Assembly (NCBI GenBank): GCA_029232285.1
Contig: JAOXFI010000049.1
Span: forward strand, 1 to 60,514
DNA length: 60,514 nucleotides
Reading direction: 5' to 3'
Origin: Agmasoma carcini (nom. nud.)
Lineage: Eukaryota > Microsporidia > Thelohaniidae
Position 1 is the first letter of the stretch; each line of letters opens with the position of its first letter. The notes beneath the pieces are model-generated. The model had not been told where the DNA came from. It did no database searches and saw only the letters and a list, made by a program, of their open reading frames with translations. The position numbers and the translations under genes are program-made. This document shows, in pieces, positions 12,203 to 60,514 of this stretch.

Positions 12203-14236
12203 ATGACAAGAAGAAGAACAAGCAGATTTATTGATGAGTTTGCTGACGAAGATACAGATTCAAGTATTTATTCAGATCAAGAATCTGAAGATCTAGACGC
12301 TTTACCTATAATTCAAACATCTGCTGCAAGAACTGTTAAGTCTATGGACGAGTATACAAAAGAGTTGGAACAAAAATATGAAGCTGAAAATCTCGAAGAA
12401 GACTCGGATTTTGAATCTAAAACACTCGAAACCATAAATCAGCTAAATCTATTACCAAAACCCAGTTCGCCTCTCCTATTTCTGATCAGATGCTCCTTAG
12501 GAAAGGAAAACCAAATTATGATGAGAGTTCATTCTAACTCAGATTGTAAAGGAATCACATCTCTTTTTCAAAAAGATGGTTTAAAAGGTTATTTTTATAT
12601 CGAAGCCTTTTCTAAACAAGCCGTACAGGAAGCACTGGCTAAAGTGAGAAACGTTAATCGAAGCAAACTAACAATCGTTCCTAAAAATGAAATGGTGGAT
12701 GCTATTTCATATAAGAAAGATTTTATCACAAATGAGTTCGCAAGAATAAAAAATGGAAAATATCAGGGCGACTTAGTTCAAATCTTAGAGGAAGACCAAG
12801 ATGTTGTCACAATAAAGGTTGTACCAAGAATCAACAATGTAAAAAAACTATTTGATCCTGAAGAATTTAGGACACAAATCTATAGAAAAGAGGGTGGTTA
12901 TATTTATAGTAGGGATTTTTATAAGGATGGATATCTTCAGAAGGTTATGTTGAAATCTAATCTAGATTTTGATGTTAGTCCCACTTTTTCAGAACTTGAA
13001 AATTTAAATATTAAGTCACTTTTTGATTCATCTGACAAGGTAAGAGTTAAACGTGGTGAATTGATCAATACTATTGGTAAAATAGAGTCTATAAGTGGTA
13101 GAAATGTGGTTGTTGACAAAAATGGAGAGAAAGTAACAATAAACATTGATGATCTTGAACGATATTATGAACCAGGCGATGAAGTATCATTTAAAGGAAG
13201 AAATGCTGTCGTTCTTAATCAAGATGGCTTTAAAATAACACTAGGTCTTAATAATTTTAGAGAGGAAGCCGTCGTGAGTATAACTGATTTAAAGGCCCCT
13301 GAGATTGTGGGCCAGCCTATTCAAGAAACACCACAATTACCTAAAACAAGGTATCGTAGAGATAATCGCATATTTAAAAATGCTATGATTACGAAAGGCT
13401 CTTACAAGGGTTACAATGGTGTTATTAAGGAAATCAACAGAGAAAAGGTAAGATTGCAGCTATCAAGTAATTTGAAAATAATTACTTTGCCTTTGACCTC
13501 TTTGCAAATTGACGGTGCCATCAGTACAATTTATTCTCAGTCTGAGCTAAGTGCGATTGCCAGAAACGAACTAACTCAAAGTCAAATATCTTCAGACAAG
13601 CAGCCAATGACACCAGGCATTGTTGGATTAGGCGCACAAACACCTGGTTACAATACGTTAGGCGCACAAACACCTGGCTTCAATACGTTCGGAGCACAAA
13701 CACCAGGTTACAATACGTTCGGAGCACAAACACCAGGTTATAATACATTAGGCGCACAAACACCAGGTGCTTATACAGCTGCAACCCCAGGTCATAACGT
13801 AACCCAAACACCTGGTGCTTACAATCCTGCTACACCAGGTCCTAATACAACTCAAACACCTGGTATTTACACGCCTACCTGTTATTATACATATGATAAT
13901 GTTCAAAATAATAAGAGCAGCTGTGCTAACGATTTAACATCTAATTGGTTTAAATCTGATTCCAAGTATGAAGGTGCGTTGGTTAGGATGGGTGAAGAAA
14001 CGTTAACTGTATCAGACATACAATCAGGCCAAATCATTACCAATAAAGGTATTTATAACAGATCTGATGTTGTATATGTTGCACCTGATAAGTATGACTG
14101 TGCTGTTGTTATGGATGGAGAAAACAAAGGTTTGAATGGTGTTATGATTGAAATTGGTGATGATAAATGTAAGCTTAAGATGAATGATGGTGTGGTCAAA
14201 GAAATAAGTCTTCAGTACCTTGCAAGAAAGACTTAA
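12203..14236 (+). CDS. SPT5: Transcription elongation factor SPT5
   Basis: A 677-residue subunit of the SPT4-SPT5 (DSIF) complex, which clamps RNA polymerase II on DNA in the nucleus. Residues 1-80 are acidic (FADEDTDSSIYSDQESEDLD). The NGN domain spans about 90-172 (FLIRCSLGKENQIMMRV ... YFYIEAFSK). KOW modules follow: FARIKNGKYQGDLVQILE at about 180, INTIGKIESISGRNVVV at about 290, and MITKGSYKGYNGVIKEIN near 395. A C-terminal repeat region at about 467-557 consists of TPG-centred units (GAQTPGYNTF, repeated about five times, then TPGAYT-type units), the likely CDK9/BUR1 phosphorylation target. A last KOW (VVMDGENKGLNGVMIEIG) closes the protein. It is shorter than yeast or human Spt5 (about 1,060-1,090) but has all parts. 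It converges on the Derlin gene 44 bp downstream. Confidence 0.96.
   Translation: MTRRRTSRFIDEFADEDTDSSIYSDQESEDLDALPIIQTSAARTVKSMDEYTKELEQKYEAENLEEDSDFESKTLETINQLNLLPKPSSPLLFLIRCSLGKENQIMMRVHSNSDCKGITSLFQKDGLKGYFYIEAFSKQAVQEALAKVRNVNRSKLTIVPKNEMVDAISYKKDFITNEFARIKNGKYQGDLVQILEEDQDVVTIKVVPRINNVKKLFDPEEFRTQIYRKEGGYIYSRDFYKDGYLQKVMLKSNLDFDVSPTFSELENLNIKSLFDSSDKVRVKRGELINTIGKIESISGRNVVVDKNGEKVTINIDDLERYYEPGDEVSFKGRNAVVLNQDGFKITLGLNNFREEAVVSITDLKAPEIVGQPIQETPQLPKTRYRRDNRIFKNAMITKGSYKGYNGVIKEINREKVRLQLSSNLKIITLPLTSLQIDGAISTIYSQSELSAIARNELTQSQISSDKQPMTPGIVGLGAQTPGYNTLGAQTPGFNTFGAQTPGYNTFGAQTPGYNTLGAQTPGAYTAATPGHNVTQTPGAYNPATPGPNTTQTPGIYTPTCYYTYDNVQNNKSSCANDLTSNWFKSDSKYEGALVRMGEETLTVSDIQSGQIITNKGIYNRSDVVYVAPDKYDCAVVMDGENKGLNGVMIEIGDDKCKLKMNDGVVKEISLQYLARKT
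13605..13875 (+). repeat. SPT5 C-terminal repeat array at DNA level
   Basis: The repeats GGCGCACAAACACCTGGTTA and near-identical variants recur at 39-bp spacing about five times, then give way to shorter TPG units. The similarity of the DNA copies suggests recent expansion or homogenisation inside the coding region. Confidence 0.85.
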
Positions 14237-14280
14237 ATTAAAATTAAAAGGAAATTTGACAATAAATTTATAAATCAATT

Positions 14281-15894
14281 TTAACGACTTTTATTTTCTT
14301 CATCAATTGAGGTGTTTGAATTTTCATCATTTAAAGAAGGAATGCTGGAAGGCAAAGTTTCAAAGTTATTCCCTTGTTCGGAATTAACACTTTCCTCTTC
14401 AAAACCATCATCAATAATTTCATTTACAACGGCATCCGTCGGTTTGCTGCTAATGTTACTATCTTCCTCGTCCAGTGACTTAAATTTATTTTCTTTAAAA
14501 TCTTTATCATCGTCAGTCGACTCAACCTCTTCACTTGCAAATCCATCTTCAATGTCAGCTGAAGCATCCATTTTTACATATTCAGATTGATCTACAGATA
14601 AATCATCAATAATTTCTTCTCGATTATCATTTTCTTGATTATTTTCTACAGAAACATCGTTATCTGGAGTTACAACTTCAATCGAATGAAGTGACTCAAT
14701 GCTTTCTTCATCAAATTTCATATCACCTTCGTCATTATCAATGCTGATTACATCATTAACATCCTTTTCGCAAATAATCATCTCATCATCACATTCGCTT
14801 ATAGCTTCAATATCTCCTTCGTTAAAATTAGTCTCTTTCTCATCAACAACATCACTTTGATTAAAATTTTCAGAACTTCTTTCACCAAAATTAACATTTT
14901 CATCAAGATTTATATCTTCTTCATCACCAAAATCAAGATCAATATCTTCTTTATCATCTTCATCAAGATAAACCTTATTTATAATCTTAAAACTCTCTTC
15001 GATATGTTCCTCATCACTTTCACTAATGATTTCAATTTCTTCATCATCAAATTCAACGTCTTTATCAGATAAATTGCTGATATCACCAACAATATCTTTA
15101 TCTAAATTAGTATTATGAATATTAATATCATCGTTCTCCTTATCATCAATAACTTCATTAAAAAAGTTATTTTCTCCGAGTGTATTTGTTTCATCCCTAA
15201 CATCACTGTTAGATGAAGAAGACGAATCAACTGTTACTGGTTCTCTTTTATTTTCAGTGCAGCACCTTCCTTCCTCACCAAATAACCTATGTAAAAAGCA
15301 AGGTGTCCTTAAAATGTTAGAACCTAAACGTGGATAAACATCCCTTAAATAGTAAACAATGTGACCTACCAAAATACCCATGATTTCTTCCATAGAGACT
15401 CTGCTTTCAAATATGATAGTGAAAAGTGGAACTAGGAAGGGTAAGTAAAAGGCCGGAAAGTTCACAAAGCCTAATATTTGAACTATGGCATGTGGGTTTT
15501 TTCTCGTCCAGATATAAGTTATAGTACAAGAAAAGCTTGGACCTAGCATAGGAATGTAGTAGATACTGCTGAAGAACAACAAAATGATCCAAATGACTGA
15601 GATGAGGTAAATGTAATCAGAAACTCTAGACATGCCCTCCTCCAACATTCTCGAGTACCTATAGAAGAATAGCATATGCATAGCACCTTCTATCCCAGGC
15701 TTACCCAGATAAAGGAATGAAGTAAAGATTCTGTGTAAATGTAACCTTTTTAGGTAATAATAAGAATAGGTGAGTTGACTGCTGTCCAAAGCCTCTATGT
15801 AGACTAAGAAAGATAGTGAGATCATTCCTAATAACAATATTCTTGTTATTGGAGGCATAGTCTTAAGGAAGTTAAGAACAATCGAGTCTGTCAT
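14281..15894 (-). CDS. DER1: Derlin (DER1-like ER protein) with giant acidic tail
   Basis: Residues 1 to about 215 form a Derlin, a rhomboid-like pseudoprotease of the ER membrane that helps retrotranslocate misfolded proteins for degradation. Marks are PPITRILLLG at 14-23 with the hydrophobic segments after it, HRIFTSFLYLG at about 53-63, MHMLFFYRYSRMLEEG at about 72-87, and GHIVYYLRDVYPRLG at about 177-191, the family's GHxYYFLxDVYP signature. Derlins are normally 200-300 residues. Here about 320 extra residues follow that are overwhelmingly Asp/Glu with Ser/Asn, for example DDEEIEIISESDEEH, and contain no recognisable domain. The tail should be cytosolic, where Derlins recruit CDC48/p97, so an interaction or chaperone-like role is possible (inference). 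GGGTAAAATTTTT follows the start codon complement, giving the expected ACCC signal. Confidence 0.9.
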   Translation of the reverse strand: MTDSIVLNFLKTMPPITRILLLGMISLSFLVYIEALDSSQLTYSYYYLKRLHLHRIFTSFLYLGKPGIEGAMHMLFFYRYSRMLEEGMSRVSDYIYLISVIWIILLFFSSIYYIPMLGPSFSCTITYIWTRKNPHAIVQILGFVNFPAFYLPFLVPLFTIIFESRVSMEEIMGILVGHIVYYLRDVYPRLGSNILRTPCFLHRLFGEEGRCCTENKREPVTVDSSSSSNSDVRDETNTLGENNFFNEVIDDKENDDINIHNTNLDKDIVGDISNLSDKDVEFDDEEIEIISESDEEHIEESFKIINKVYLDEDDKEDIDLDFGDEEDINLDENVNFGERSSENFNQSDVVDEKETNFNEGDIEAISECDDEMIICEKDVNDVISIDNDEGDMKFDEESIESLHSIEVVTPDNDVSVENNQENDNREEIIDDLSVDQSEYVKMDASADIEDGFASEEVESTDDDKDFKENKFKSLDEEDSNISSKPTDAVVNEIIDDGFEEESVNSEQGNNFETLPSSIPSLNDENSNTSIDEENKSR

Positions 15895-24888: not shown

Positions 24889-26244
24889 TTAGCTTTCAGT
24901 ATTCAAAATTTCATATTTTTCAATAAATAAATCAGAATTTTCTTTGTTAAAAATCAACTTTTTTCTTAAACCAAAAGCCAAGTAAAATAATCCTAATGTA
25001 ACAATACTAAGTACAATATTCAACCAAAATAAATACTTAAACTCACTATACGTCTCTAAACTATTAGAGAATAAAAATGACGTAACTTTACCAGTAAATA
25101 CAGATGATATCGCTATAAATACTCCATTATACACAGTCTGAGATGTACTTTTCAACTCTGATGGGCACATCTTTGATGCTAAATAAACACCACTATTAGC
25201 TAAAAGACCAAATCCAACACCCTTTAATAGTTCAATCACACAAACAGATATAAAAGGATAACTAATATCTTCAGGTAAGCAATAATAAAGTACAAACCTA
25301 ACCACCTGTGCTAAAATACCTACAAACATAGGTGTAAAGTATCCAAATCTATTTGTTATATTCTTACCATAGAAAAATAACAATATTTCAAATATAATAG
25401 CACACAAAGAACATAAAGATTGTGGCTTATATATAAAGAACATTAACTTATCAAACGTACTTTCAAGAGGCCCCTCCTTGGGCTTAACTAACTTTAACAC
25501 CTTTTCCATATATGATGATAAATAAAGTGTCATACTTGATCTAGAAATACCAACTAAAAAAATAATACCTATAAATGAAACATAATCAGGATTTGAAAAT
25601 AAAGTACTAATTCCTCTAAACAACCCACGACTGCTTCTATTTCTAACACTTACATTATTAACAAACAATATTACACATATAGCTGTTAGTACTGCTACAA
25701 TACCACCATAGTATCTAACTTTTATAAATTTATCCACACCTGTTGTTTTATTATCAATCAGTGTTTCTATTAAAAAAGTCGTTATTAAATAACCAAATGA
25801 AGACCAAATCTTTTGTCTTCCATAATCATCCTCACTCGCACCTGGAACGTTTTTTAGATATTCTAAAACTATTTTATTGGTAAGAGGTAGTGTTGTTGAT
25901 ATTAAGGAAAAATATATTAGATATTCAATTTTAAATAAGCTAGCTGTTGTGAGGGGTAGGAAAAATATTTGAAAAATTGTAGCTGAAGCTAGAAAAAGGA
26001 ATAAAAGTATTAATTTTTGCCTTCCCCAGGCATCGTTGACATATGCGAACATGATATTACTTACAAATGAGATTGCTTGAGCCAGTGATGTTAGTTCACC
26101 AGCTGAAATGGTTGAAATATTAAAGGCATCATTCATAAATTTATTTCTAAACTGATGAAGAATGTAATAAGACATACTCATAGTTAGATATATCAATTTG
26201 GGTGCAAATAAGTATTTTGACTCAGTTTTAGTATCTAATAACAT
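24889..26244 (-). CDS. Major facilitator superfamily transporter, paralog 1
   Basis: A 451-residue polytopic membrane protein with about 12 predicted hydrophobic segments and a polar central loop at about 205-240. It is a paralog of the protein at 42412-43779, sharing YYxLHxFRxxF near residue 30, DYGRQKIWSS/KYGKQRMWGT at about 143, SRSSMTLY/TRSAMSLY near 235, and IELLKGVGFGLLANSG/VEIIKGMYFGLAHMSA near 345. The CPSELKSTSQTVYNG segment at about 365-379 matches the xPxxLRATxQ motif of LacY/NupG-like (MFS_1_like) carriers. Microsporidia are known to have an MFS family of surface purine-nucleotide transporters; membership is plausible but inferred. ATP or nucleoside import would fit the parasitic lifestyle; sugar or another substrate cannot be excluded. 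Its start has a full CCCC signal. Confidence 0.8.
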   Translation of the reverse strand: MLLDTKTESKYLFAPKLIYLTMSMSYYILHQFRNKFMNDAFNISTISAGELTSLAQAISFVSNIMFAYVNDAWGRQKLILLFLFLASATIFQIFFLPLTTASLFKIEYLIYFSLISTTLPLTNKIVLEYLKNVPGASEDDYGRQKIWSSFGYLITTFLIETLIDNKTTGVDKFIKVRYYGGIVAVLTAICVILFVNNVSVRNRSSRGLFRGISTLFSNPDYVSFIGIIFLVGISRSSMTLYLSSYMEKVLKLVKPKEGPLESTFDKLMFFIYKPQSLCSLCAIIFEILLFFYGKNITNRFGYFTPMFVGILAQVVRFVLYYCLPEDISYPFISVCVIELLKGVGFGLLANSGVYLASKMCPSELKSTSQTVYNGVFIAISSVFTGKVTSFLFSNSLETYSEFKYLFWLNIVLSIVTLGLFYLAFGLRKKLIFNKENSDLFIEKYEILNTES

Positions 26245-29715: not shown

Positions 29716-30363
29716 TTATTTAATAGAAATATTAAGATCTTCAAGCATGCCATATTTTGCTAAATAGTTTGAAAAATTCTTAATTAACTCGTGATATTCC
29801 TCAAATTTTTTATAAATATTGATAAGAGTGGTAGAATAGTTGATTTGTTCTTTGAGGTAAAGGATTTGAACTTTGGTAATGAAATCATTAAATTCAAGGT
29901 ATTTATGATAAATAATATTGGAATTTTCATTGGCTAGCCCTAAGGCTTGTATTTTATAATAAAAGTAGTCATTTATTGTTTCGGAATTGCAATTAAGTAA
30001 ATATTTTTGTAGCTCCAAGTATATAATTTTGGATTTTTTATAATTTACAAAAATATTGGTTTTCTTTGAATAATCATTAAGTAAATTACAGAACACCAGT
30101 GCAGGTTGACTGTAAAGGTTTTTTCCTTTATAGCAAGTCGAGTCATTGAAATGATTCACCATATTTTTAATGAGATCAATATGTTCAAGGTTTTGATTAA
30201 ATTCTTTAAGGATTTCAGAAATGTGTACATGAGTTTTCAATGAGTGTTGAATGATGTTACATGTGGTGATGTTGCTAACCAATGTGTCTTCCGTGTGAAT
30301 ATCAGATATTTCTGAACTCCAAACCAAGATTAAGTTTAGAAAATAGATTTTTTTTAAAAACAT
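29716..30363 (-). CDS. Probable secreted protein, family member A
   Basis: A 215-residue protein starting at the ATG at 30363; the frame is open for ten further codons upstream but lacks an ATG there. Residues 1-19 (MFLKKIYFLNLILVWSSEI) look like a signal peptide. The remainder is helical and Asn/Lys/Tyr-rich, with a single STCYKGKNLY block that resembles LLCYKGKKSL in the protein at 39.1 kb. Similarity to that protein is otherwise weak, so family membership is tentative. No domain known to me. Such small secreted proteins scattered in repeat-rich DNA are common in microsporidia and are often candidate host-exposed factors (inference). Confidence 0.55.
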   Translation of the reverse strand: MFLKKIYFLNLILVWSSEISDIHTEDTLVSNITTCNIIQHSLKTHVHISEILKEFNQNLEHIDLIKNMVNHFNDSTCYKGKNLYSQPALVFCNLLNDYSKKTNIFVNYKKSKIIYLELQKYLLNCNSETINDYFYYKIQALGLANENSNIIYHKYLEFNDFITKVQILYLKEQINYSTTLINIYKKFEEYHELIKNFSNYLAKYGMLEDLNISIK

Positions 30364-33401: not shown

Positions 33402-34704
33402 GTTTTTTAAAAGATTTAACGATTGTTACAAAAAGTTTAACGATTGTTTTAAAAAGTTAAATAATATTTACTAAAATTTACATTTTTTAATTGTATATTT
33501 CTATTGTTTAAAATACAATATAAATATTCTTACAATTCAAAAAATATATTTAAGTTTTATTTTATTATGTGTATATATTTGGTAAATAACAATAAATTGT
33601 AAAATTTTTAATCAAAAATTGATTCATTATGAATAACCCTTTCCAAGTATGAAAGCATATTTTCTCAGTATCCTTTGCAGTCATCTTTTGTAATTTCATT
33701 AAACCCATTTTCAATATTATCCAACAGATCTGCCTCGGATCTAGAATTTGACCTAATAACATGATTCTTATATTTTGAAAAACAATTTTCAATTGGATTA
33801 AGGAATTCTGAATAAGGCGGTAGAAAAGGAATTTCATGTCGGCTATTTTCAAATAAATTCTTTATTAATTGTTGCATTATAAAACAAGGGTCTATCAATT
33901 TGATCATTTACATATGAAATAAGATTTTCAAGATATTCACAAAACTTAACACCATCATATCTTAGCGCATTATGCTCATAATAAACGAGACCACCTCTTT
34001 GATAAGCCGCACATACACTTAAATTCCTTGATCGTATCGCAGCAATTATTGTAAAGGCACAGTACCTTAAGTGCTCTTCCTCTTTTAGTTCTCATTGTTA
34101 CACAAAACTCTACTTCATCGACAAAAATAATATTATTTTCCGAATAATGGGTACATACCCGATAAAAAGAATCAGCATAGGCATGCCTTTTTGTAATATT
34201 GTCTGGTGCATTCTCAGCATTTACAACCCTCGCAATGTGTTTAAGGCTATAATTAAAGTCATTAAGTATCCTATGAATAGATGATATTGAGATAATTAAA
34301 TTGTATTTATCCATTATACTTATAATTGTTAAGTCTGCATTATCATCCACCAATCTTTTCACATATTGCCTTTGCTCATTTGATAATCTTTTCTTCCTTC
34401 CACACTTTGAATAAGACATTTCAATAACCCCGTTTTTATAAATTTATTTATGATGCTGCTAATGGTAGATTGTGGAAGCTTCATGTCATTTGAAATATCA
34501 ACCTTTCGAATTCCCAACTTTAACTTCTCGATAATCGAATGTCTTATTTGGTCATGGATAAAATTCCTGATCATAGTTTTTTTATAGGAACAATTTAAAA
34601 AAAATATGTAATAATGATTAATGTAAATTTATAAAAATTATTTGATATAAATAAATAATTGTTTATTTTTTTTAACAATTGTTAAACTTTTATTAAAAAA
34701 ACCT
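33402..34704 (-). mobile_element. IS630/Tc1/mariner-type transposon, third family
   Basis: The left end (GTTTTTTAAAAGATTTAACG) and the inverted right end (GGTTTTTTTAATAAAAGTTT) are related; both contain TTTAACRATTGTT and sit beside TA. A nearly intact minus-strand transposase occupies most of the interior. The exact end positions are estimated to within a few bases. This is the least decayed transposase in the window. Confidence 0.8.
33665..34574 (-). pseudogene. IS630-like DDE transposase, frameshifted
   Basis: Three open blocks in order. An N-terminal homeodomain-like HTH (34359-34574) includes IRKVDISNDMKLPQSTISSI. A middle block (33976-34419) has KCGRKKRLSNEQRQYVKRLV followed by the catalytic FVDEVEFCV, like the xxDExxxxx first acidic residue of IS630/pogo-type enzymes, and MRTKRGRA. 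A C-terminal block (33665-33907) has IPFLPPYSEFLNPIENCFSK, the family signature PPYSPxLNPIE around the last acidic residue. The middle and last blocks are separated by roughly 70 bp in other frames; the block around the second Asp was not clearly identified. It appears to need at least two frame corrections, so it is called a pseudogene. Confidence 0.85.
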
Positions 34705-35389: not shown

Positions 35390-36091
35390 TTAATCAGTGT
35401 TATCCACATTTCCCCATTTCAACATTTTAAACATGACTTCATTACCCATAGCTAAAAGACACATATTTTCATCTAAGAAATGTTTATATTTCCTAAGAAA
35501 ACAACTATCTTTAATTAAATCAATTTCTTTATGATTGTTATAAATAAACTTAAGTATAAGATCAAAGTCTTTCGAAGCCTTCTTTAATCTGTTAAGGTAT
35601 ATTAACTGTTCAGATTGATTCTTTTTATTGATCTCAATTATGCTATTCTTTAAATAATTTTTTATAATTTTATTTAAGAAATCAATAAAAACATTTGAAT
35701 TTGAAAATGATAATTCTAGCTTATTTCTGATTAAATAATCATTAACCAGTCCTAAATGTATTGAATCGTTTGGTGGCATTATAAACAAACTTTTATAGGT
35801 AGTTTTACATCTTCGTGTTACAATATTAGCATTATTAAGTAATAAAAGAAGATATTGTTCATTGCTTAATATAAACATGCTTTCGTCTGTTCTAGCATCA
35901 ATGTAACTATTAATTGATTCCAAAATAGTGTTGATGTTAAATTTTAAGAGATTTGGATCTTTAGAAATCCGACAAATCTCTATTTCACTTAATATTGCAT
36001 CATCATTGGATGTGGTGCTTGATACTTCGTCATTTCCACCTTTACACCAACAAAAACTTAAAATAAAAAGAATTATAACTTTTACTTCCAT
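35390..36091 (-). CDS. Secreted protein, family member B
   Basis: A 233-residue protein with a clear signal peptide (MEVKVIILFILSFCWCKGG) and a strong AAATTTTTACC start signal touching the ATG. The mature part is helical and charged. NDDAILSEIEICRISKD near residue 28 and INTILESINSYIDAR near 54 align with SPDAILNIEELEVLKQD and LNDLLDTMISYVDTR of the protein at 39.1 kb, and the C-terminal CFLRKYKHFLDEN aligns with SYKYTSFLMKYKD there. The two are therefore diverged paralogs 3 kb apart on the same strand. No known domain; function unknown, possibly host-directed. The start signal argues it is expressed. Confidence 0.72.
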   Translation of the reverse strand: MEVKVIILFILSFCWCKGGNDEVSSTTSNDDAILSEIEICRISKDPNLLKFNINTILESINSYIDARTDESMFILSNEQYLLLLLNNANIVTRRCKTTYKSLFIMPPNDSIHLGLVNDYLIRNKLELSFSNSNVFIDFLNKIIKNYLKNSIIEINKKNQSEQLIYLNRLKKASKDFDLILKFIYNNHKEIDLIKDSCFLRKYKHFLDENMCLLAMGNEVMFKMLKWGNVDNTD

Positions 36092-39090: not shown

Positions 39091-39795
39091 TTAAATTTGA
39101 TTTATTACCCTTTCTGAATTTCTTCTAAGCTTTAACGATCGTATAATCACATCTTTATATTTCATTAAGAATGATGTATACTTATAAGATGTATCTTGAG
39201 TCATAAGATCTCCAGAATAATATTCATATTGTATACATTTAAGAATATCATAGAATTTTTTTACAACATATTTTAAGAAATTCAATTCAAGAACAATATT
39301 GTAATTTTGAACATGATCATTACCATTTTGCAAGCTTTTCTTACCTTTATAACATAATAATGTATTTAAATGCTTTAAACTATGTAAAATATGGTAATTA
39401 TGATAATCTAAGTAGAATAAAACCCTGTCTTTATCACTTTTGATATGTTTTTCATCAAAAAAATCATTCATTTTAATTCTATTTAAATATTCAGGAATGG
39501 GTGGATAATTTACAAACTCTTTGTAACTTGACCAGTTCATATACTCTAAATTATCCATTATATAGTTGTTGTAGTCTGATAATAAAGACTCTGTAGTATT
39601 AATAACATCTAAGTTCAATCTTGTATCAACATAGCTTATCATAGTATCAAGCAAATCATTAAGGAAAAATTTTGTTTTTTCAGTGTCCTGTTTAAGTACT
39701 TCCAATTCTTCTATGTTAAGTATAGCATCAGGTGAATTCGTTGAGCTAGAAATAGCACTATGACTTGACAGTCCTAAAACCAAAATTTTGAACAT
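39091..39795 (-). CDS. Secreted protein, family member C
   Basis: A 234-residue protein with a short hydrophobic N-terminus (MFKILVLGLSSHSAISSS) that could serve as a signal peptide. It aligns with member B at 35.4 kb over its N-terminal 40 mature residues (SPDAILNIEELEVLKQD, FLNDLLDTMISYVDTR) and near its C-terminus. LLCYKGKKSL at about 146 recalls STCYKGKNLY of member A at 29.7 kb. It is mostly helical, Asn/Tyr/Leu-rich, with only one cysteine. No recognised domain. No clear CCC motif precedes the ATG, only CCT. All members lie on the minus strand within 10 kb of transposon-rich DNA, which suggests duplication and spreading in an accessory zone. Confidence 0.65.
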   Translation of the reverse strand: MFKILVLGLSSHSAISSSTNSPDAILNIEELEVLKQDTEKTKFFLNDLLDTMISYVDTRLNLDVINTTESLLSDYNNYIMDNLEYMNWSSYKEFVNYPPIPEYLNRIKMNDFFDEKHIKSDKDRVLFYLDYHNYHILHSLKHLNTLLCYKGKKSLQNGNDHVQNYNIVLELNFLKYVVKKFYDILKCIQYEYYSGDLMTQDTSYKYTSFLMKYKDVIIRSLKLRRNSERVINQI

Positions 39796-40450: not shown

Positions 40451-41594
40451 CATGAAAGCACATGTTTTAGCCCATGGGGCTAGAAAATGAAATCATAACA
40501 TTAATAAATAAATTTATTGTGAAAGAACACCTTTTTATTTTCAAAATAACTGATAAAAGTCGATATTTCTGTCGAGAAATGTATTGTTTGGGAGAGTGTA
40601 GGGCGTTAAAGTCAAAAAAACACTTAAATGATATTAAGATGCAATATATGACTTGAAGAATATAAGATAAATGAATATTTCTACATCAATTTTCTAAGAA
40701 TAAAAACCAACAAAATTGTATCGTCCGCATATTTATATGCATATAAAACACCAAATTATTTAGTTGCTGCGCGAATAAACATAAACGAAAAAAACTTATA
40801 TAAAACTTAAAAACATTTTTATCGAAGCAATTAGTGATATTATTAAACACATAAATAAATTAGAGGGATTAAAAGGTCAGTACAAATCGATGAAACAGCA
40901 TGCTGCCGTAGCAAGCATATTTTTAACCCCACAACTATGAAAACTGAAACACAAGGTACTAAATAGATTATTGGTGCAATATGTGAAATCACAAAAAAAT
41001 AAAACTTGAAATTTTACCAGACAGATCAATTGAAACTTTTGAAATGTATAAAAAAAATCATAATAAATGACACCTTAATCAAAACAGATGGATTTCCATC
41101 TTATCCATAAAATGTTGAAAACTCTTATATGTCGACATAGTATAATTAACCTCAATAAAGGTTTTAGGAACGAGAGAAGAGAAAATACGAATACTATAGA
41201 AAGTGTATGGTCGGGTCTTAAGATTGAACTGAAGTCAAGAAGAGGTGTGTCGTATGATAATCTAAGCAATTTTGTAAAGGAATATGAATTGATGAATATC
41301 GTGAATAAACAAAAACAATCTTATTGTGATAAGTTATTTTTAAAAATCATTAAAATTTTTATAATAAAAAATAGTAATTTTTTACCGGATTTTATACAAG
41401 AGTCTCCAATTTTTTATTTTTTTAATATTTATCTTTTAAACTGTTTGAATACAAATTTAAACATTTCTGTTCGCCTAAAAACTTGTCTCCACAGCCATTT
41501 TTTTGAACATATCAAAGCTTATCACTTATTAATTTATGAAATATTTGCTATTTTATTTATTATTATGATAATTAATTATCACCACCAAACTTAA
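40450..41594 (+). pseudogene. Merlin/ISXO2-like transposase relic 3
   Basis: A plus-strand relic with blocks in the right order. VQIDETA near 40878 holds the first catalytic Asp (family VEIDEx). IIGAICEITK lies near 40968. TDGFPSYP near 41085 carries the second Asp. NTIESVWSGLKIELKSRRGV at about 41190-41250 carries the final Glu and is followed by an open C-terminal frame to 41594 (DNLSNFVKEYE). The upstream open frame at 40474-40656 (ITLINKFIVKEHLFI) may be the N-terminal region. Stops occur between the blocks. The C-terminal half is the best preserved of the Merlin relics here. Confidence 0.75.
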
Positions 41595-42411: not shown

Positions 42412-43779
42412 ATGAATCTACTAGATAGACTTGAGAAAAAATTCCTTATTAAACCTAAACTTCTATACTTTATCTTAAACCTTCAATATTACTCCCTTCA
42501 TAATTTTAGGGTTCATTTTGCTAAACAAAAATTTCAAACAAACGATGGCAGTTACGGCAAGTGGATAGGCGCAATAGGCTTTAGTACTTTCTTTACAAAC
42601 ATGTTCATAGCTAACCAATCAGATAAAACTGGTATGCACAAACAAATATTGATCTCTCTCATCTTATTAACATGTCTAACATTTTTATCATTTTACCTCC
42701 CACGTGTAGGAACAATGGAATTCTGGTTGATAGTCACCATGTATTTAATACTAAATGCACCAAAACAACCACTCTTAGATAAAATTATGTTAGATTACCT
42801 TGCAGATAATGGTATTGATAGTTCTAAGTACGGAAAGCAAAGAATGTGGGGTACCGTTTCATACGGTGCTGCTAACTTTATCAGTGAAACCATAATAACA
42901 GTTCCTGGACAAAAAAATTATGATTTTACAAATCTAATATATTATTCTGTCATCACTACCATATTGTCTATATTTTGTATAATTACATTTATTAAAACTA
43001 AAAATACCAAAAGAGACATGGCTAAGGTAACTGGACTTAGTGAATTATTTAAATGTAAGGAATATATCATATTTCTTATTATTATGTTTTTAAATGCCTT
43101 AACGAGGTCCGCAATGTCCTTGTATCAACCCTTATATGTTAAGAATGTGATAAAAGTTAAGCCATATGTCTTATCAGATGATATGCCTGAAGTTTTAAGA
43201 GTATTTTTAAATTTTTTTAATGAAAAACCAATTGCTACTATGTCCTTATGTGGTATTACCTTTGAAATACTTGTTATGTATTTTTCTGATACGATAATTA
43301 GTAGTTTAGGTTATTTCTGGCCTTTACTTATAGCACAGCTGATGACTTTGATAAGGTTTGGTACGTACTTCATGCTTAATGAGAATGTAAAACATAGATA
43401 TATCATAACCTGCTGTGTTGAGATAATTAAAGGAATGTACTTTGGGCTTGCTCATATGTCTGCTGTTCAAATTGCAAAGAAATTAGCACCAGAGCATTTG
43501 AGAGCATCATCACAGATGTTGTATGCTGGTACATTCAATGCACTTGGATCTCTTATATCAGGTCAGTTCTTTGGACATTTCTTTGATTCGGTCCTTAAAT
43601 CAGAGAATGGACAAAAGGAGGCATATAATACTTTCTTTTTAACTAATACTTTAATAGCAAGTGGAACGATTCTGTTCTACATTTATAAATATGGTGTAAT
43701 TGAAAGGGTGTTATTCAACAGGGCCAAGGAAGAAGAGTTACTTAATAGATTTAATGAAATTGAGATCAATGAAGAATAA
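42412..43779 (+). CDS. Major facilitator superfamily transporter, paralog 2
   Basis: A 455-residue, roughly 12-span membrane transporter paralogous to the one at 24.9-26.2 kb. Matches run the full length: YYSLHNFRVHFA near 24-35, KYGKQRMWGTVSYGAANFIS at about 140-159, TRSAMSLYQPLYVKNVIKVK near 231-250, EIIKGMYFGLAHMS near 341-354, and APEHLRASSQMLYAG near 363-377, the xPxxLRATxQ motif of LacY/NupG-like carriers. Sequence identity to paralog 1 is modest, so the duplication is old. As with paralog 1, membership of the microsporidian MFS purine-nucleotide importer family is plausible but inferred. The C-terminal cytosolic tail is charged (FNRAKEEELLNRFNEIEINE). Confidence 0.82.
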   Translation: MNLLDRLEKKFLIKPKLLYFILNLQYYSLHNFRVHFAKQKFQTNDGSYGKWIGAIGFSTFFTNMFIANQSDKTGMHKQILISLILLTCLTFLSFYLPRVGTMEFWLIVTMYLILNAPKQPLLDKIMLDYLADNGIDSSKYGKQRMWGTVSYGAANFISETIITVPGQKNYDFTNLIYYSVITTILSIFCIITFIKTKNTKRDMAKVTGLSELFKCKEYIIFLIIMFLNALTRSAMSLYQPLYVKNVIKVKPYVLSDDMPEVLRVFLNFFNEKPIATMSLCGITFEILVMYFSDTIISSLGYFWPLLIAQLMTLIRFGTYFMLNENVKHRYIITCCVEIIKGMYFGLAHMSAVQIAKKLAPEHLRASSQMLYAGTFNALGSLISGQFFGHFFDSVLKSENGQKEAYNTFFLTNTLIASGTILFYIYKYGVIERVLFNRAKEEELLNRFNEIEINEE

Positions 43780-53669: not shown

Positions 53670-54534
53670 ATTTTTAATTGCCTTTAATATTGTTATAGAA
53701 TATTCAAGCTTAGGGACTAATTTGAGTTCAGATTTTATTAAAGGTGGATTGGTTTCGTTTCTTAAGTCTATCAATATACAACAAAGACCTTATAAAGGTT
53801 TATTGATTAAAGTCTATAGGTCTTAGGAATATGTACTTTTGTGTAATTTCCATAGTAATATAGACTTGCATTTGTAATATTTATTGATTAAAGTCTTTTG
53901 ATCTTATGCTTCAGATAAGAGCCAGCGTTTTATGCTTTCTTCAAGCGATTTTTTTTGAAATTCAAGCGCAGTATTCATATGATAGGCATATTGCACTGAT
54001 AACTTAATTTGATATGAGTGAATCATTTAAGGATGTTATTATAAGTAGAGAGTTGTGAATATAGTCAGTTTTTTTAATTAAGCAAAATTATGTTGATCAT
54101 GAATAAGATTATTGGTTTTTAGATAGAAAATATTATAAATTCAAATACATTTAAGGTTAGTGATATTTTGGTTTGTAATTCATAATATAACTAATATCGG
54201 TTTTTTTTCTATAATCCATGTTTTATAGCTTAGAAATATGTATGAATTTAATATAAGAAAATGTGATTTTTCTACACTACATCGTTTTAGAAGTTTTTAA
54301 AAACATACAACAAATAAGAGTCGATTATGAAATAATTGAGATAGACCAGAGTTTTACCCAAAAGAATAAGCTAGTAGCAATTATTATCATCTATGTACTC
54401 TTAGATTACCAACTAGAAGTTGGTATTGCTCTTTTGAAGAATTTATTTATATCAGTTAGGCTTTTGTTCCTCGCATATTGTTTATTGATCAGTTTTCTTA
54501 AAGGCTTATTTTTGATTGCTCTCCAAAGAGTTCA
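53670..54534. other. AT-rich spacer
   Basis: No gene supported. TATTGATTAAAGTCT occurs twice (near 53800 and 53881), in related TTTATTGATTAAAGTC contexts about 80 bp apart. A frame at 54263-54547 partly overlaps a dispersed repeat and lacks other support. Confidence 0.4.
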
Positions 54535-54790
54535 GACCTTCACGTAGTGCAGAGTGATAACGTTGGGAACAACAGCTAATTGGTAAAAACAGATCAGAAC
54601 CGTGGGAGATACGGATAAACTGGTTAATTCTGAGAAATGGTTTGAAGTCGATAGACATACATTTATTCTTCGATAAAAGTAAGGGTCACTTCTTAAAGAA
54701 TCAGATGGTTGGTGTGTAAAATAAACTAAGTCTAGCATCAAGTAAATCCTATAACATGGGGTCTTTAAATCCTATTGTCACTACCTAATA
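54535..54790 (+). repeat. Dispersed repeat family 3, 5' half, copy 2
   Basis: Matches 6045-6320: GTGCAGAGTGATAACG, GGAACAACAGCTAATTGG, CAGATCAGAACCGTG, GGTTTGAAGTCGATAGACAT, CACTTCTTAAAGA and ATGGGGTCTTTAAA occur in the same order. Confidence 0.6.
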
Positions 54791-55139
54791 TGGTTAAAAC
54801 TATCATTTCAATCGGGTTTTGTTCCATATCTGTTAAAATTGTTTTTAATAATCCTCGACTCCACCTGATAAAAAATGGGCTTGTGGGTAAAAGATTAAGA
54901 ATTAACGAAGACATCTAGGATTCATATAATATTTTTTAATATGCTTGATGAATTTATATATAAATCGCTATATAAGGTGCAAGATTAAACGGATAGATAA
55001 TGAAGGATATGTTGTTGTATTATGGGTTTTAAGCGTTTTTAGGGTTTTTAATAATACTCTAATATACACTTTGACAATTCTAAAGCATTTGGTTTTAGAT
55101 ATTATTGCAAAAGATGTAAGAAGAAGTGTGATGTTAAAT

Positions 55140-55720
55140 AGGGTACGATGATTAAGAGAACAAGAATAGAAATCAATGATATTTTAAGAGTATTAATTCT
55201 ATTTGCGGATAATTTTGGTGTAACAAGAATATTCGAAGAAGTTCAAGTATCTCGTAAGACCATCGCAAAAATTATTAAAATAGTGAGAGAAAAGATAAAA
55301 ACTCATCTTAATAATTTGTTCAATTTACCTTGAGCCGAACATAAAGTAGAAATTGATGAAACATTATTGGCTAAAAAGGAAAACAAACAAAGTTCGATGT
55401 ATTGATCAACAATAGATTTTTGGTGCAATAGAAAGGGTACAGGAAAAGTACTTTCAAAAATGTTGAGAAAAATGACAAGAAAACATTGAATAGAGCGATA
55501 AGAACTTTCATTGTTGCAAACGCTAAAATTTTAAGCGATTGTGGCTTACGTATATGTCATTCTTTAGTGAAATGATACGTATGCGCATGATTTGGTTAAC
55601 TGTTCAATGATTTCGTTTCGCCAACCAGCATAGAAGATCATACTCAATCAATTAAATGTTTTTAGGAATTATTTTAAAAATGGTTTCTTGGAAGAAATTA
55701 TATAAAGAGAGACTGCATTG
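55140..55720 (+). pseudogene. Merlin/ISXO2-like transposase relic 6
   Basis: An N-terminal open block at 55148-55333 has an HTH of the family (VTRIFEEVQVSRKTIAKIIK). After one in-frame stop the same frame continues HKVEIDETLLAKKENKQ, the first catalytic Asp block, and a shifted frame gives IFGAIERVQ. Later parts are unrecognisable. VEIDETLL is closer to the family consensus than in any other relic here. Confidence 0.75.
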
Positions 55721-56502
55721 AGTTAAACTTTAGTGTATTTGTTTTCAGAATAAATTATAAATCATTAACAAGATAGACTTTTTTGGGCTTCTACTTAAAA
55801 TTATTAATAGTTAAATTTATTAAAAATATTTTTTATTTTGATTGCGTTAATTTATTGATTGATTAATATTATGATGTGTAATATAGTTTTAATATTTGAA
55901 AAGTATTATAATATATTATTAAATCATATAAATATTATACACATACAGGTTATGTTATATACAACCATGATAGTTTGCATATACGTGGATATCTTCAATT
56001 TTATAATTCAAATTTATAAAGGAATGGTTTAATATAAATGTTAGTTTTTATAAATTTGTATCTATATAGAAGTAACTGTTGTATTTATGAATATTTATAA
56101 ATTTTATATTTGGATGATTAAATAAATCCAATTTTAAAATTTATAATCAAATTTTTAATTTTTAATTTTATGTCTTCGCTAATTTCTAATACCCCTCTTA
56201 TTACCTAGAACCCAAAAAATAAATAAATGATAAAATTTATTTTATTATAAATGAATTTAATAATTAAAATTTTTGATTAAATGCATCAGAGTTCAATATG
56301 ATAAAAACACATTAAATTTTATTACGGGTTTAGGTCATTTTATATTGTGTTTTAACATAAAGTATTTTAATATTTAATTAAATTTATCTAATATGAAATT
56401 TATATGTATTATAACGTTTACAAAAATGTAGAGTAGTTAAAATGCGACGAGCATATGAAAGAGTTTGTTTTGTGATTTAGAAAAATGTTGTCAAGAGGGA
56501 TA
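55721..56502. other. AT-rich spacer
   Basis: No gene or repeat recognised. Confidence 0.45.
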
Positions 56503-57830
56503 CATTACTCCAAAAAAACCGGATGCCCCAAAACAATTAATAAAAAGTGTAATTTTTTTAATAAAAAAATATTTTTAGTTTAATAATATAAGTATATCCA
56601 TAATATTTTTGTTTTTTAAATCGCGCATTTTATATAAACATTTTTGATAATTTTGATGAAATTTATAATTAAAAACCAATAAAAAATCAAACACCTAGAA
56701 AAAAATATTATATATCGTTTTCTCTTTATATAACTATAAATACAAAAATACTCTAATGGGTAAACATGTTTTTGAATTTACAAAGGTCAAATTTTCAGCC
56801 ATTTTTAAGGAGATTTCAATATGTGAAATCAGTGTATAACCGACTTAAAATGATCGCGCTAAAATTAAAAGAATAATAATAAAAGAAGAGGTGATAGTCG
56901 CAGAAAGAAATTGATTGATTTCAGCAATAATAAATTGATTTAAAAATGATCAATAAAAAACCTATGTTACAAGCCGAGATATCAAAAAAATGAAGAAAAA
57001 TCAAATATTAGTATATGTGATAAAAGTGTGCGTCTTTTCTTAAAGAAAAATCATTTTAGATGTGCAATTCATTAATAGATTAAGAATTGCAAAAATGTGG
57101 CTATTTGGAGACAAAAGGTACTTAAGCGATGTTATTTTACAGATGAAAGTTTTTAACATTTATAATGACTCTAAGAGACGAAAGGTGTGATTTAAGAAGG
57201 AAAATCAACGCCTATAAATGAACTGTAAAATTTGGTAAGAAGAAAATATTTGTTTGGGGTTGTATGAGTAGAAATGGTGTTAGAGATTTGGTTTTATAGA
57301 TGGAACCTTTAATGCACTATATTATACTTAAATATTAACCAATAATTTAAATGAGAGTGCACAAAAATTCCAATTTTCAAAATGTTATTTTTAACAAGAT
57401 AATGATCCAAATCATAAAAGTATGATAGTATCAGAATTTTTAAATATATGAATATTGAGGTTTGAGAATGGCTTTCACAGAGCTCAGGTCTTAACCTAAT
57501 AGAACATCTATAGATTTATTTTAAGCAAAAACTAAGAAATGTTGTTTTTGAAAACGAGGTGCATTTAATATCAAATATTAGTGAAATGTGGTCTGATATC
57601 GGTACTTAATATTGTAGAACACTAGTAGATTCTATAAGTGACGAAATTAAAGAAGTTATCGTGGCAAAAGGTTGTCATATACCTCGTAAAATATAGGTGT
57701 CTTTTTTTATTAGTTTTTAATTAAAAATTTTATAGATATGCTTATACCTTTAAACTCAAATTATTTTTTATTTAAAAATTTACATTTTTCAAACAAACTG
57801 TTTGGGTTGTCTGGTTTTTTTGGAGTACTG
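56503..57830 (+). mobile_element. Tc1/mariner-type transposon, copy B, heavily decayed
   Basis: Same family and orientation as the element at 2670-4098. The left end is CATTACTCCAAAAAAACC and the inverted right end CAGTACTCCAAAAAAACC, each beside TA. The interior aligns with copy A throughout: ATGGGTAAACATGTTT, TTTATAATGACTCTAAGAG, TATTTGTTTGGGGTTGTAT and GAACACTAGTAGATT (copy A: GAACACTAATAGATT). About 100 bp are lost relative to copy A (1,328 versus 1,429 bp). No transposase block longer than about 20 residues stays open. Confidence 0.9.
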
Positions 57831-59218
57831 TATATCAAAATTTTCATTGATGGTAGCTGTCTTAAGACATCTCTTACACATAAAATAAAGACTGTTAAAG
57901 TGATTTTTGATGACATTAAAACAACCAATTTCTTTGAAAATGTATGATATTTTGTTATTAACTTTTAAAATAAAAATTTTCTTCTCAGAATTATTTATTT
58001 CGTTCAAAAGTGAAAAAAAACTTCCTCTAGTTTCATAGATAAAATTTTGTGCTTTATCTCATAAAACCTTAAAATATTGAATAACTAAAGATTTTATTTA
58101 AAGAAAAAACTATTCTGAAATAACTAAAAATATTTTGTTGTCTTTTCTAACCATAAGTCAAAACCTCTTTATAACGGCACGGCCCAATTTTTCAATAGTT
58201 TTTTACTAAAACACAAATAGTGTATGATTATTATTACCGCTTTCCACCCCTTTTATATTATATTTTGATTATTGTTTGGTTTGAGTGTTTTTACTTGCTA
58301 GCTTGGCTTTTCTCTTTTTGTGAGTTGATTGATATTTTAGCTTCTTTGTAGAGAATACGAATATGGCGTAGAGGTTCCCAATCGATATTACTTTATGTCA
58401 TTTCTTTTTATATTTTTGCATTAGCAAGTATTTAGATAAATAACTCTTTATTATTTTTACCAGTTAGATTTAAGCCTTTGATTTTTAACTTCATTTAAAA
58501 GAATTTTTTAAAGCTTTTCTGTCATTCTGCAATTGGAAGGTCTTTGTTAGATTTAGTTAATAAAACCTTCTTGTTTCGATTTAATTTGTCATCAATCAAG
58601 ATGTTTCTATCTTACATCGCGAAAAGGTTTGATTTCTTCCCAGAGCAAATACAATATAATACAAATATTAAAATTTTTGTTATGTTGTCAATATAATCAT
58701 CATTTATAATATTTCTTGTTTTGATAAAAATGTAAAAACATTTAGAGCTATTTATAGTAAATGCTATATAGTTTGATTATTAAATATCATAATTAATAGT
58801 TGTATATAATATTATTGTAGTGTTTCATATATATATCACGTGATAATACTTTAAAATTGTATCTATATTAACTTTATTCATGTTATAATCTGTTTTTAAA
58901 TATTAAGTATTGAATATTTTGAAGTATCAAAATTTGTAAATTTAGCTGTTATATTTGTAATTTGGACATAAATTTATAATATGTTAATGAAGCACTGATA
59001 TTGATACACTTATACCCATCTATATTATAGTCTAAAGAACCTTAACAATCATTATTAGACTGTTTTTAAACATAATTATGTGTATTAAAACATATAAATA
59101 TTATATTAATTTTTTATACAAAACAAACAAATTTTATAATTAAAATAATGTTTTTTAAAAATATGTTTAAATACAGTTAAATTTAAACATCTATATAAGG
59201 ACGCTCGAAAATACTTTC
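57831..59218. other. Spacer with dispersed repeat
   Basis: No gene supported. The 58220-58410 segment is a dispersed repeat copy. Just before the next gene a TATATAAGGACG block (59194-59205) could be a TATA-like element, but no CCC motif is present. Confidence 0.4.
58220..58410 (+). repeat. Dispersed repeat family 3, 3' half, copy 2
   Basis: Matches 6360-6535: GTTTTTACTTG, TTGGCTTTTCTC, GTTGATTGATATTTTAG, CTTTGTAGAGAATACGAATA and CCCAATCGATATTACTTTA in order. Confidence 0.55.
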
Positions 59219-60514
59219 ATGATATTTAACTTGATTTACTTTTTTATCAAAAATACAAATGCAACTAATACCCCTGTTCAGGTTGTTGTAAATGATCCTA
59301 AACCTTCTACAAGCGGGAGCGAAAGTGATGAAACTCCTCAAAATAAAAAACCTAATAAATCCAATCCCTCTAGAAGGCCATCATCACCCAATCCCTTTGA
59401 AAGACCATCAGCACCAGATAACACCGGAGAAATGCCACAAGATGTTTACTATTCTATTTATAACTTCTTTATTTCACGAATGGGCTATCCACCACATCCA
59501 AATGATGTACGTCAGCTCTACAATTGCTGCTACCACAATGATCCTAGCGCTTTTAATAATTTTTCTAACACCTTTAACAACACTGCAATCCCACGACCAT
59601 TCCCTCCAAGTTTTGGAATGGGTCAAAACCCTTTCAATCCCATATATTCTGGGTTTCAAAATAACAATTTGGGGGTGACAAATGACATTTTAAATCCAAT
59701 GAACAATCAGTTCTTGCGAAATCTACTTTCTTCAGGTGGTTCAAGACAATTTGGTCAAAATCCATATATTAGTTCGCTAGATAACTTACAATCAGGATGG
59801 CCTGAAGTGGAGAAGAAGACTTTTGAAGTTCTCAGACGGATTGCCTCTGATATACAAAAGAAAACAGTATATACATTACAAGAATTATCAAATCCTAGTC
59901 AATATGACTTTTTGTTCTTACTTATTCATAATTCTCTACTAAATAGTCCTTCTAATCCTACAATTGCTTCATTTTTCGAATTAAACCCAAATCTGAGAAG
60001 CTTCCTTGACAAACTTTATATTTTTTCTAACAGAATTCTTTCTCAAGATCCATTACTACTCTATCAAAACATAATTCCAATTCTTCAAACGGATTTTGAT
60101 GCCTTATCTCTTATCAACATCCTTCTTAACCTGATCAATATTAAGAATCCAGGTAGTCAACAAAATTTAGGTAATATGGCACAAGGTCGTTATCCAGTAA
60201 ATAATATGGTACCAAACCAATCATTTTGTCCACCTCAACCCGCATATCCAACTCAGAATCCAATGCCAAATAATCAAGCTTACCCTGTTAATCTACCACC
60301 TCGTCCTAATCCACCCTGTCCTACCACAGTACCTCAAAATCAACCTTGTTTTGCTACAGCACCCCCAAGTCAACCTTGTCCTACCACAGTACCTCAAAAT
60401 CAACCTTGTCCTGCCACAGCACCCCCAATTCAGCCTTGTCCTGCTACAGCACCCCCAATTCAGCCTTGTCCTGCTACCGCACCCCCAATACAGCCTTGTC
60501 CTGCAACAGAACCC
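59219..60514 (+). CDS. Probable secreted repeat protein, spore wall or polar tube candidate (3' truncated by window)
   Basis: An open frame of 432 codons runs from the ATG at 59219 to the last base of the window without a stop; the frame is closed just upstream (TAA at 59167). Residues 1-15 (MIFNLIYFFIKNTNA) could be a short signal peptide, although it contains a lysine. Then come a Pro/Ser/Asn-rich acidic stretch, a Phe/Asn/Pro/Gly-rich region (MGQNPFNPIYSGF), a helical part (about 180-310; FDALSLINILLNLINIKN) and a Pro/Gln/Cys tail. From about codon 367 the tail becomes a decapeptide repeat, CPATAPPIQP, with six or more copies still running at the edge. Secretion plus evenly spaced Cys and Pro-rich repeats is what polar tube and spore wall proteins show, but there is no specific match I can name. 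Confidence 0.7.
   Translation, partial: MIFNLIYFFIKNTNATNTPVQVVVNDPKPSTSGSESDETPQNKKPNKSNPSRRPSSPNPFERPSAPDNTGEMPQDVYYSIYNFFISRMGYPPHPNDVRQLYNCCYHNDPSAFNNFSNTFNNTAIPRPFPPSFGMGQNPFNPIYSGFQNNNLGVTNDILNPMNNQFLRNLLSSGGSRQFGQNPYISSLDNLQSGWPEVEKKTFEVLRRIASDIQKKTVYTLQELSNPSQYDFLFLLIHNSLLNSPSNPTIASFFELNPNLRSFLDKLYIFSNRILSQDPLLLYQNIIPILQTDFDALSLINILLNLINIKNPGSQQNLGNMAQGRYPVNNMVPNQSFCPPQPAYPTQNPMPNNQAYPVNLPPRPNPPCPTTVPQNQPCFATAPPSQPCPTTVPQNQPCPATAPPIQPCPATAPPIQPCPATAPPIQPCPATEP
60316..60514 (+). repeat. 30-bp tandem repeat coding CPATAPPIQP
   Basis: Units such as TGTCCTGCTACAGCACCCCC plus ten bases recur at 30-bp spacing, in frame. Early units vary (CPTTVPQNQP, CFATAPPSQP, alternating), giving a 60-bp higher-order period; the last units are near-identical. 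The array continues past the window end. Confidence 0.92.

Follow-up and report, generated by a model that had tools for sequence, protein, structure and literature searches.

The stretch of DNA analysed here (the window, 60,514 nucleotides) is the whole of contig C36 in a genome assembly of 4,263,419 bases and 69 contigs. At its right end lies the 5' part of a coding sequence that begins with an ATG, has no further ATG between this codon and the preceding in-frame stop, and runs open through the last base of the contig (Table 1). In a set of 50 sequences simulated by a first-order Markov model of the window's composition, the longest ATG ORF arising by chance measured 134 amino acids; the frame of 432 uninterrupted codons is far above this and is a real gene, so that an earlier sequence-only reading was correct in describing both a frame without a stop up to the window edge and a genuine gene. 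The approximately 5.5 kb preceding the gene (53670-59218) hold no ATG ORF of 90 amino acids or more.

Table 1. Features of the C36 reading frame, of its encoded protein and of its likely continuation (positions in the window unless a contig is given)
Feature	Position	Strand	Basis or remark
5' part of coding sequence, 432 codons, open at contig end	59219..60514	+	
Putative short signal peptide, residues 1-15 (hydrophobic 2-10, possible cleavage after A15)	59219..59263	+	inferred
Ser/Pro/Asn-rich, probably disordered, residues 16-73	59264..59437	+	composition
Predicted three-helix segment, residues 74-122, with Cys103-Cys104 pair	59438..59584	+	single-sequence AlphaFold
Further predicted helices, residues 196-321	59804..60181	+	low confidence, pLDDT under 50
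Pro/Asn-rich linker, residues 322-365, one Cys (337)	60182..60313	+	sequence
Decapeptide array A B' A B B B and cut seventh unit	60314..60514	+	very likely runs on past contig
Likely 3' part of coding sequence, 113 codons and stop	G000:C45:47170-47511	-	outside window

Composition and decapeptide array

The part of the protein encoded on C36 contains 16.0% proline and ranks second among 86 ORFs drawn from 280,514 bases, namely the window, the C45 end and C65 (both chosen), and the first 10 kb of C1-C20; the third of the 86 has 7%, and the ranking is to be read with the C65 stretch having been chosen, not sampled. Asparagine and glutamine each rank fifth in the same set. Overall cysteine content is ordinary (2.3%, rank 26 of 86), with only two cysteines in residues 16-335, and it is their spacing that is the unusual feature: cysteines stand at residues 103, 104 and 337, and from 367 through 427 they recur at a strict 10-residue interval. 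The pI is 6.7 for the C36 part minus residues 1-15 and 7.7 for the part on C45.

The regular cysteines belong to a decapeptide array that starts at residue 366 and comprises six whole units and one cut unit, each with a single cysteine at a fixed place (TRF: 30-bp array at 60313-60514, score 236). The units follow one another in the order A (PCPTTVPQNQ), B' (PCFATAPPSQ), A, B (PCPATAPPIQ), B, B and a cut B-like unit (PCPATEP), in agreement with the initial description of a repeat with one cysteine per unit in which two alternating forms give way to nearly identical ones. None of the units contains Lys or Arg, and trypsin would therefore be unable to cut them.

Elsewhere in the window are three secreted-looking ORFs of 215-234 amino acids on the minus strand (35390-36091, 39091-39795 and 29716-30363); two of these show N-terminal kinship (31-34% over 50-68 amino acids, E 1e-4 to 3e-6) and the third is not clearly related, so that a tandem family of three is only partly borne out. 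The contig also carries two transporters of the MFS_1_like / nucleoside symporter type (24889-26244, minus strand; 42412-43779, plus strand), as well as two short ORFs that by eye resemble transposase pieces (33976-34419, minus strand; 41088-41594, plus strand).

N-terminus and predicted fold

The N-terminus lacks a positive n-region and offers a short hydrophobic stretch followed by a small-residue site at T13/A15. Its early hydrophobicity ranks 21st of the 86 ORFs, and its value of 2.05 compares with 2.31-3.41 in five other secreted-looking proteins, 2.45 in PTP2 of the same genome, and 2.66 in the PTP1-like protein encoded on C65, whose start it resembles in weaker form. A crude signal-peptide rule, devised after the sequence had been seen, picks out 17 of the 86 ORFs, this one included. 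Six of seven PTPs of Anncaliia algerae have reported full and mature lengths that imply signal peptides of 13-20 residues (PMC10229552). A signal peptide is plausible, weak as the N-terminus is, and the protein is probably secreted.

AlphaFold without an alignment returned block means of 67-72 for residues 70-109, 58 for residues 110-119 and below 50 from residue 121 on, with a mean pLDDT of 40.7 for residues 70-330; the model thus lends support, within residues 70-109, to the N-terminal helical segment proposed earlier, as a predicted structure.

Alternatively, the protein may act inside the cell as a proline-rich scaffold, such as a coat or trafficking adaptor, with a hydrophobic N-terminus that is not a signal peptide. 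NPF tripeptides, which are linked to EH domains, occur at residues 58-60 and 137-139, and these would suit such a scaffold, as would the weak signal peptide and the richness in asparagine and glutamine, whereas a fixed cysteine in every unit suits an oxidising site better. Moreover, none of nine proteins whose annotation marks them as soluble and intracellular (SPT5, septin, V-ATPase subunit, Rrs1, primase, Nsp1-like, Hsp70-like, importin-alpha and EF-hand) reaches a hydrophobicity of 2.0 in the first 30 residues, a count that leaves out four membrane proteins (Der1, two MFS and MSC), two of which do reach it. We consider an intracellular scaffold unlikely.

A CC within 12 bases before the ATG, similar to the CCC/GGG-type upstream signal mentioned for microsporidia (PMC6675976), is found in 45 of the 86 ORFs and in 34 of the 58 ORFs of at least 200 amino acids, and is absent from the window gene. 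As a class signal of secreted ORFs it was rejected, being present in 6 of 11 secreted-looking ORFs of at least 200 amino acids.

Homology searches and host lineage

Searching the protein database with residues 1-345, which exclude the repeat, yielded 1962 candidates and none at E ≤10. Two proteins of the same genome served as controls: PTP2 (665 candidates, none at E ≤0.001) and importin-alpha, for which the 7994 candidates with most shared words were scored, the best 120 were listed, and at least 228 proteins, named microsporidia among them, were found at E ≤1e-10. Since microsporidia are represented in the database and a known, fast-evolving spore protein also draws a blank, the lack of homologs is no proof of uniqueness. 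Pfam gave no family for the window protein at E up to 10, hence no PF17022 (PTP2) match, and a PDB sequence search returned nothing useful (best E 0.69). In the literature passages surveyed on microsporidian spore walls and polar tubes, no cysteine decapeptide array was found. The window protein is most likely none of the named proteins tested, but of a known general type.

The presence of PTP2 on C65 (PF17022, 79.2 bits, above the Pfam cut-off) identifies the genome as microsporidian, an origin that had been supposed and that is also indicated by an importin-alpha tree of 15 rows (the query, 11 of the 12 named microsporidia in the best 120, and three animals; a partial Dictyocoela sequence was left out). 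Here the importin-alpha encoded on C45 groups with Glugoides, Vittaforma, Pancytospora and Enterospora at 98/98, its position within that group being less sure (94/94). Among the named proteins in the best 120 listed, it is closest to that of Glugoides intestinalis (45% identity), and it is 43% identical to that of V. corneae. A microsporidian SSU rRNA model had no match in the genome.

The PTP2 locus

On C65 a PTP1-like gene is followed by PTP2 in the same orientation (G000:C65:11351-12571 and 13990-14850). The PTP1-like protein has 406 residues, a hydrophobic N-terminus, a Pro/Gln-rich composition with 16.3% proline, 20 cysteines and a pI of 4.1. For PTP1, pI values of 4.2-4.5 are given in Encephalitozoon (PMC10468886) and 4.6 in A. 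algerae (PMC10229552), and cysteine-bearing ends are reported (PMC7040029, PMC10468886). As the C65 gene has the place and make-up reviewed for PTP1 (PMC10468886, PMC10229552), the window protein is not the PTP2-linked one. The suggestion that the window gene encodes the main proline-rich tube protein is not supported, a separate PTP1-like gene being found beside PTP2.

The window protein could still belong to PTP1, either as a diverged form or as an additional copy, and act in the wall of the polar tube, given that it is cysteine-bearing, contains tandem repeats and matches the C65 protein in its 16% proline, that PTP1 is described as diverging strongly between species, and that ptp1 and ptp2 seem no longer to be linked in A. 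algerae (PMC10229552). However, that linkage is reported as conserved in several species (PMC10468886) and the PTP2-linked slot is here taken by the C65 gene with its acidic, cysteine-rich product; the two proteins have no detectable similarity (best E 2.4), and the C36 part combines a pI of 6.7 with a long, cysteine-poor N-terminal domain. We regard a PTP1 copy as distinctly improbable: the window protein is probably not PTP1, for which the gene beside PTP2 is the better candidate.

On the evidence of one gene tree, and of naming by place and composition, the genome appears to belong to the Enterocytozoonida and to carry a PTP1-like gene in the PTP2-linked slot. This bears on the total loss of PTP1 and PTP4 orthologs that was reported, after checking by tBLASTn, for all nine species examined from that clade (PMC13174016, 2026). 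The reported loss of PTP1 may reflect a failure of similarity search, or PTP1 may have been retained in this lineage.

A second repeat locus and a probable split gene

A genome search with the window protein located two places: C36, and the minus strand of C45 at its right end, where a frame open at the contig end, in an orientation matching that on C36, continues for 113 codons to a stop. This frame begins with the end of an A-like unit (VPQNP, not VPQNQ) followed by two A, three B and one B-like unit, the last of which passes into a proline-rich tail; the final 49 residues contain no cysteine. Allowing at most two mismatches, the unit pattern occurs at 13 places genome-wide, seven on the C36 end and six on the C45 end, and a reversed control pattern matches nowhere in the 4.26 Mb genome.

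Searches with the unique 5' part and with the unique 3' tail each gave a single place in the genome, and one flank of each kind most simply means one gene; two split genes would leave four repeat-bearing contig ends, compared with the two found. For one random second match, the probability of lying no more than three bases from a contig end and being correctly oriented is about 5 in 100,000, a figure weakened by the tendency of repeats themselves to break contigs, which leaves the flank count as the better argument. The C36 and C45 ends have no exact overlap beyond one base, their best ungapped overlap being 188 bases at 90%, and they may be overlapping, diverged alleles. This poor overlap would also suit two different genes with a common repeat, which is nevertheless very improbable given the single 5' and single 3' unique flank where two of each would be expected. 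We infer with some force that the assembly broke inside the array and that the two ends are very likely one gene. The predicted protein would then comprise 545 residues plus any missing units without an overlap, or about 480 with the 188-base overlap. The frame thus very likely goes on past base 60,514 into C45 and stops there, which is the extension that the sequence-only reading had called for, and nothing in the continuation points to a stop or frameshift immediately past the window edge, either of which the same reading had named as grounds for its own rejection.

Seven of 23 contig ends examined fall in tandem arrays; the sample consists of 21 left ends together with the right ends of C36 and C45, which were picked because of this repeat. 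Short-unit tandem arrays occupy the left ends of C4, C8, C11, C13 and C17 (five of the 21 left ends). Other genes or spacers may be split likewise at array-bearing contig ends.

Divergence among repeat units

Compared with the commonest B unit, seven B-type units (including the deviant second unit of C36) show 7 silent and 3 amino-acid-changing differences, all three of the latter in that second unit; of the 90 possible changes of the commonest unit, 25 are silent. Outside this count stand the cut last unit of C36 (1 silent and 1 changing difference) and the unit of C45 that merges into the tail (1 silent and 4 changing), and with both added the tally becomes 9 silent to 8 changing differences. 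The four complete A units differ only at one third position, the cut A-like unit at the start of the C45 part has one amino-acid change, and the cysteine codon is identical in all units of both contigs. This pattern fits selection on the array protein, with the proviso that the units arise as copies of each other and do not count as independent.

The expansion that had been proposed from the C36 units for the array's 3' end is not supported, because the window edge is not the end of the array and the A and B unit types mix again on C45. The order of units may reflect turnover by blocks.

Discussion

In our view these observations are best explained by one gene, split between C36 and C45, that encodes a secreted structural spore protein, disulfide-linked in the spore wall or the polar tube. 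We place the probability of this at about 0.55, divided roughly equally between wall and tube. A secreted, proline-rich structural protein is favoured by a proline content equal to that of the PTP1-like protein, the next ORF having less than half as much. Counting against it are the weak signal peptide, the ordinary overall cysteine content, the lack of homologs and of a Pfam family, the low-confidence fold, the cysteine-free last 49 residues of the C45 part and the lack of exact overlap between C36 and C45.

In such a protein, a short signal peptide would direct export and the N-terminal helical part might dock on partner proteins, while the proline-rich tail could form an extended, polyproline-II-like rod. 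Proline-rich chains tend to the polyproline-II form, with 3 residues a turn; at a 10-residue cysteine step, the rod would show one cysteine per approximately 3 nm, turned by approximately 120 degrees from unit to unit, a spacing that suits cross-links in several directions. Neighbouring rods in the spore wall or polar tube could thereby be joined by disulfides in several directions, and the threonines of the rod may be O-mannosylated, judging from PTP1 and from general knowledge. Polar tubes are reported to need reducing agents to dissolve, PTP1 and PTP2 of A. algerae being soluble only with such agents (PMC10229552), and disulfides are described as important in the polar tube (PMC10229552, PMC7040029). 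Furthermore, a pull-down with PTP3 of Vairimorpha necatrix is reported to have recovered, in addition, unknown proteins that carry signal peptides or are highly disordered (PMC10931468).

A bolder extension of the secreted-protein reading, which we hold to be doubtful, is that the protein is a lineage-specific polymer of the polar tube or wall, a disulfide-studded polyproline rod that acts alongside a divergent PTP1, in a clade from which PTP1 has been reported lost, and whose array would vary in length between isolates and so tune cross-link density and tube mechanics.

The fixed 10-residue step of the cysteines would offer a clean object for testing cross-linking in the wall or tube. More generally, structural spore proteins of microsporidia evolve too fast for homology searches, as illustrated by PTP2, which here found none, and where fast evolution is combined with assemblies broken at repeats, such genes may go missing from gene catalogues. 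As this case shows, they can be found by looking for contig ends that face each other and both open within a single coding repeat.

Among known systems, the decapeptide arrays of mussel foot protein fp-1 and the plant extensins likewise place short proline-rich units in a cross-linked extracellular polymer; to our knowledge their cross-links are not formed through cysteine, and the resemblance is one of analogy only, not of kinship. PTP7 of A. algerae, a secreted protein that is restricted to few species, was found by proteomics and is soluble with reducing agents, is a further comparable system, and differs in being threonine-rich (11%) with 6 cysteines, no decapeptide array being reported in the available account (PMC10229552). 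Spore proteins with proline-rich tandem repeats are themselves an already known kind, represented by PTP1 and NbSWP16. The latter, a spore wall protein of Nosema bombycis, is likened to the window protein by its listed features only, namely its proline-rich tandem repeats (PMC10381864); it has a heparin-binding motif and a length of 211 (PMC10381864) or 221 amino acids (PMC7040029), compared with 432 for the window part alone. PTP1 differs from the window protein in its commonly PTP2-linked locus, its acidic rather than near-neutral pI and its cysteine-bearing ends, in contrast to the cysteine-free C45 tail, and the window protein in turn has most of its cysteines in repeats, a long predicted N-terminal helical domain and no similarity to the C65 PTP1-like gene, the only PTP1 comparison made. 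Nevertheless, the window protein is, like PTP1, rich in proline, built in part of tandem repeats, equipped with several cysteines and probably secreted.
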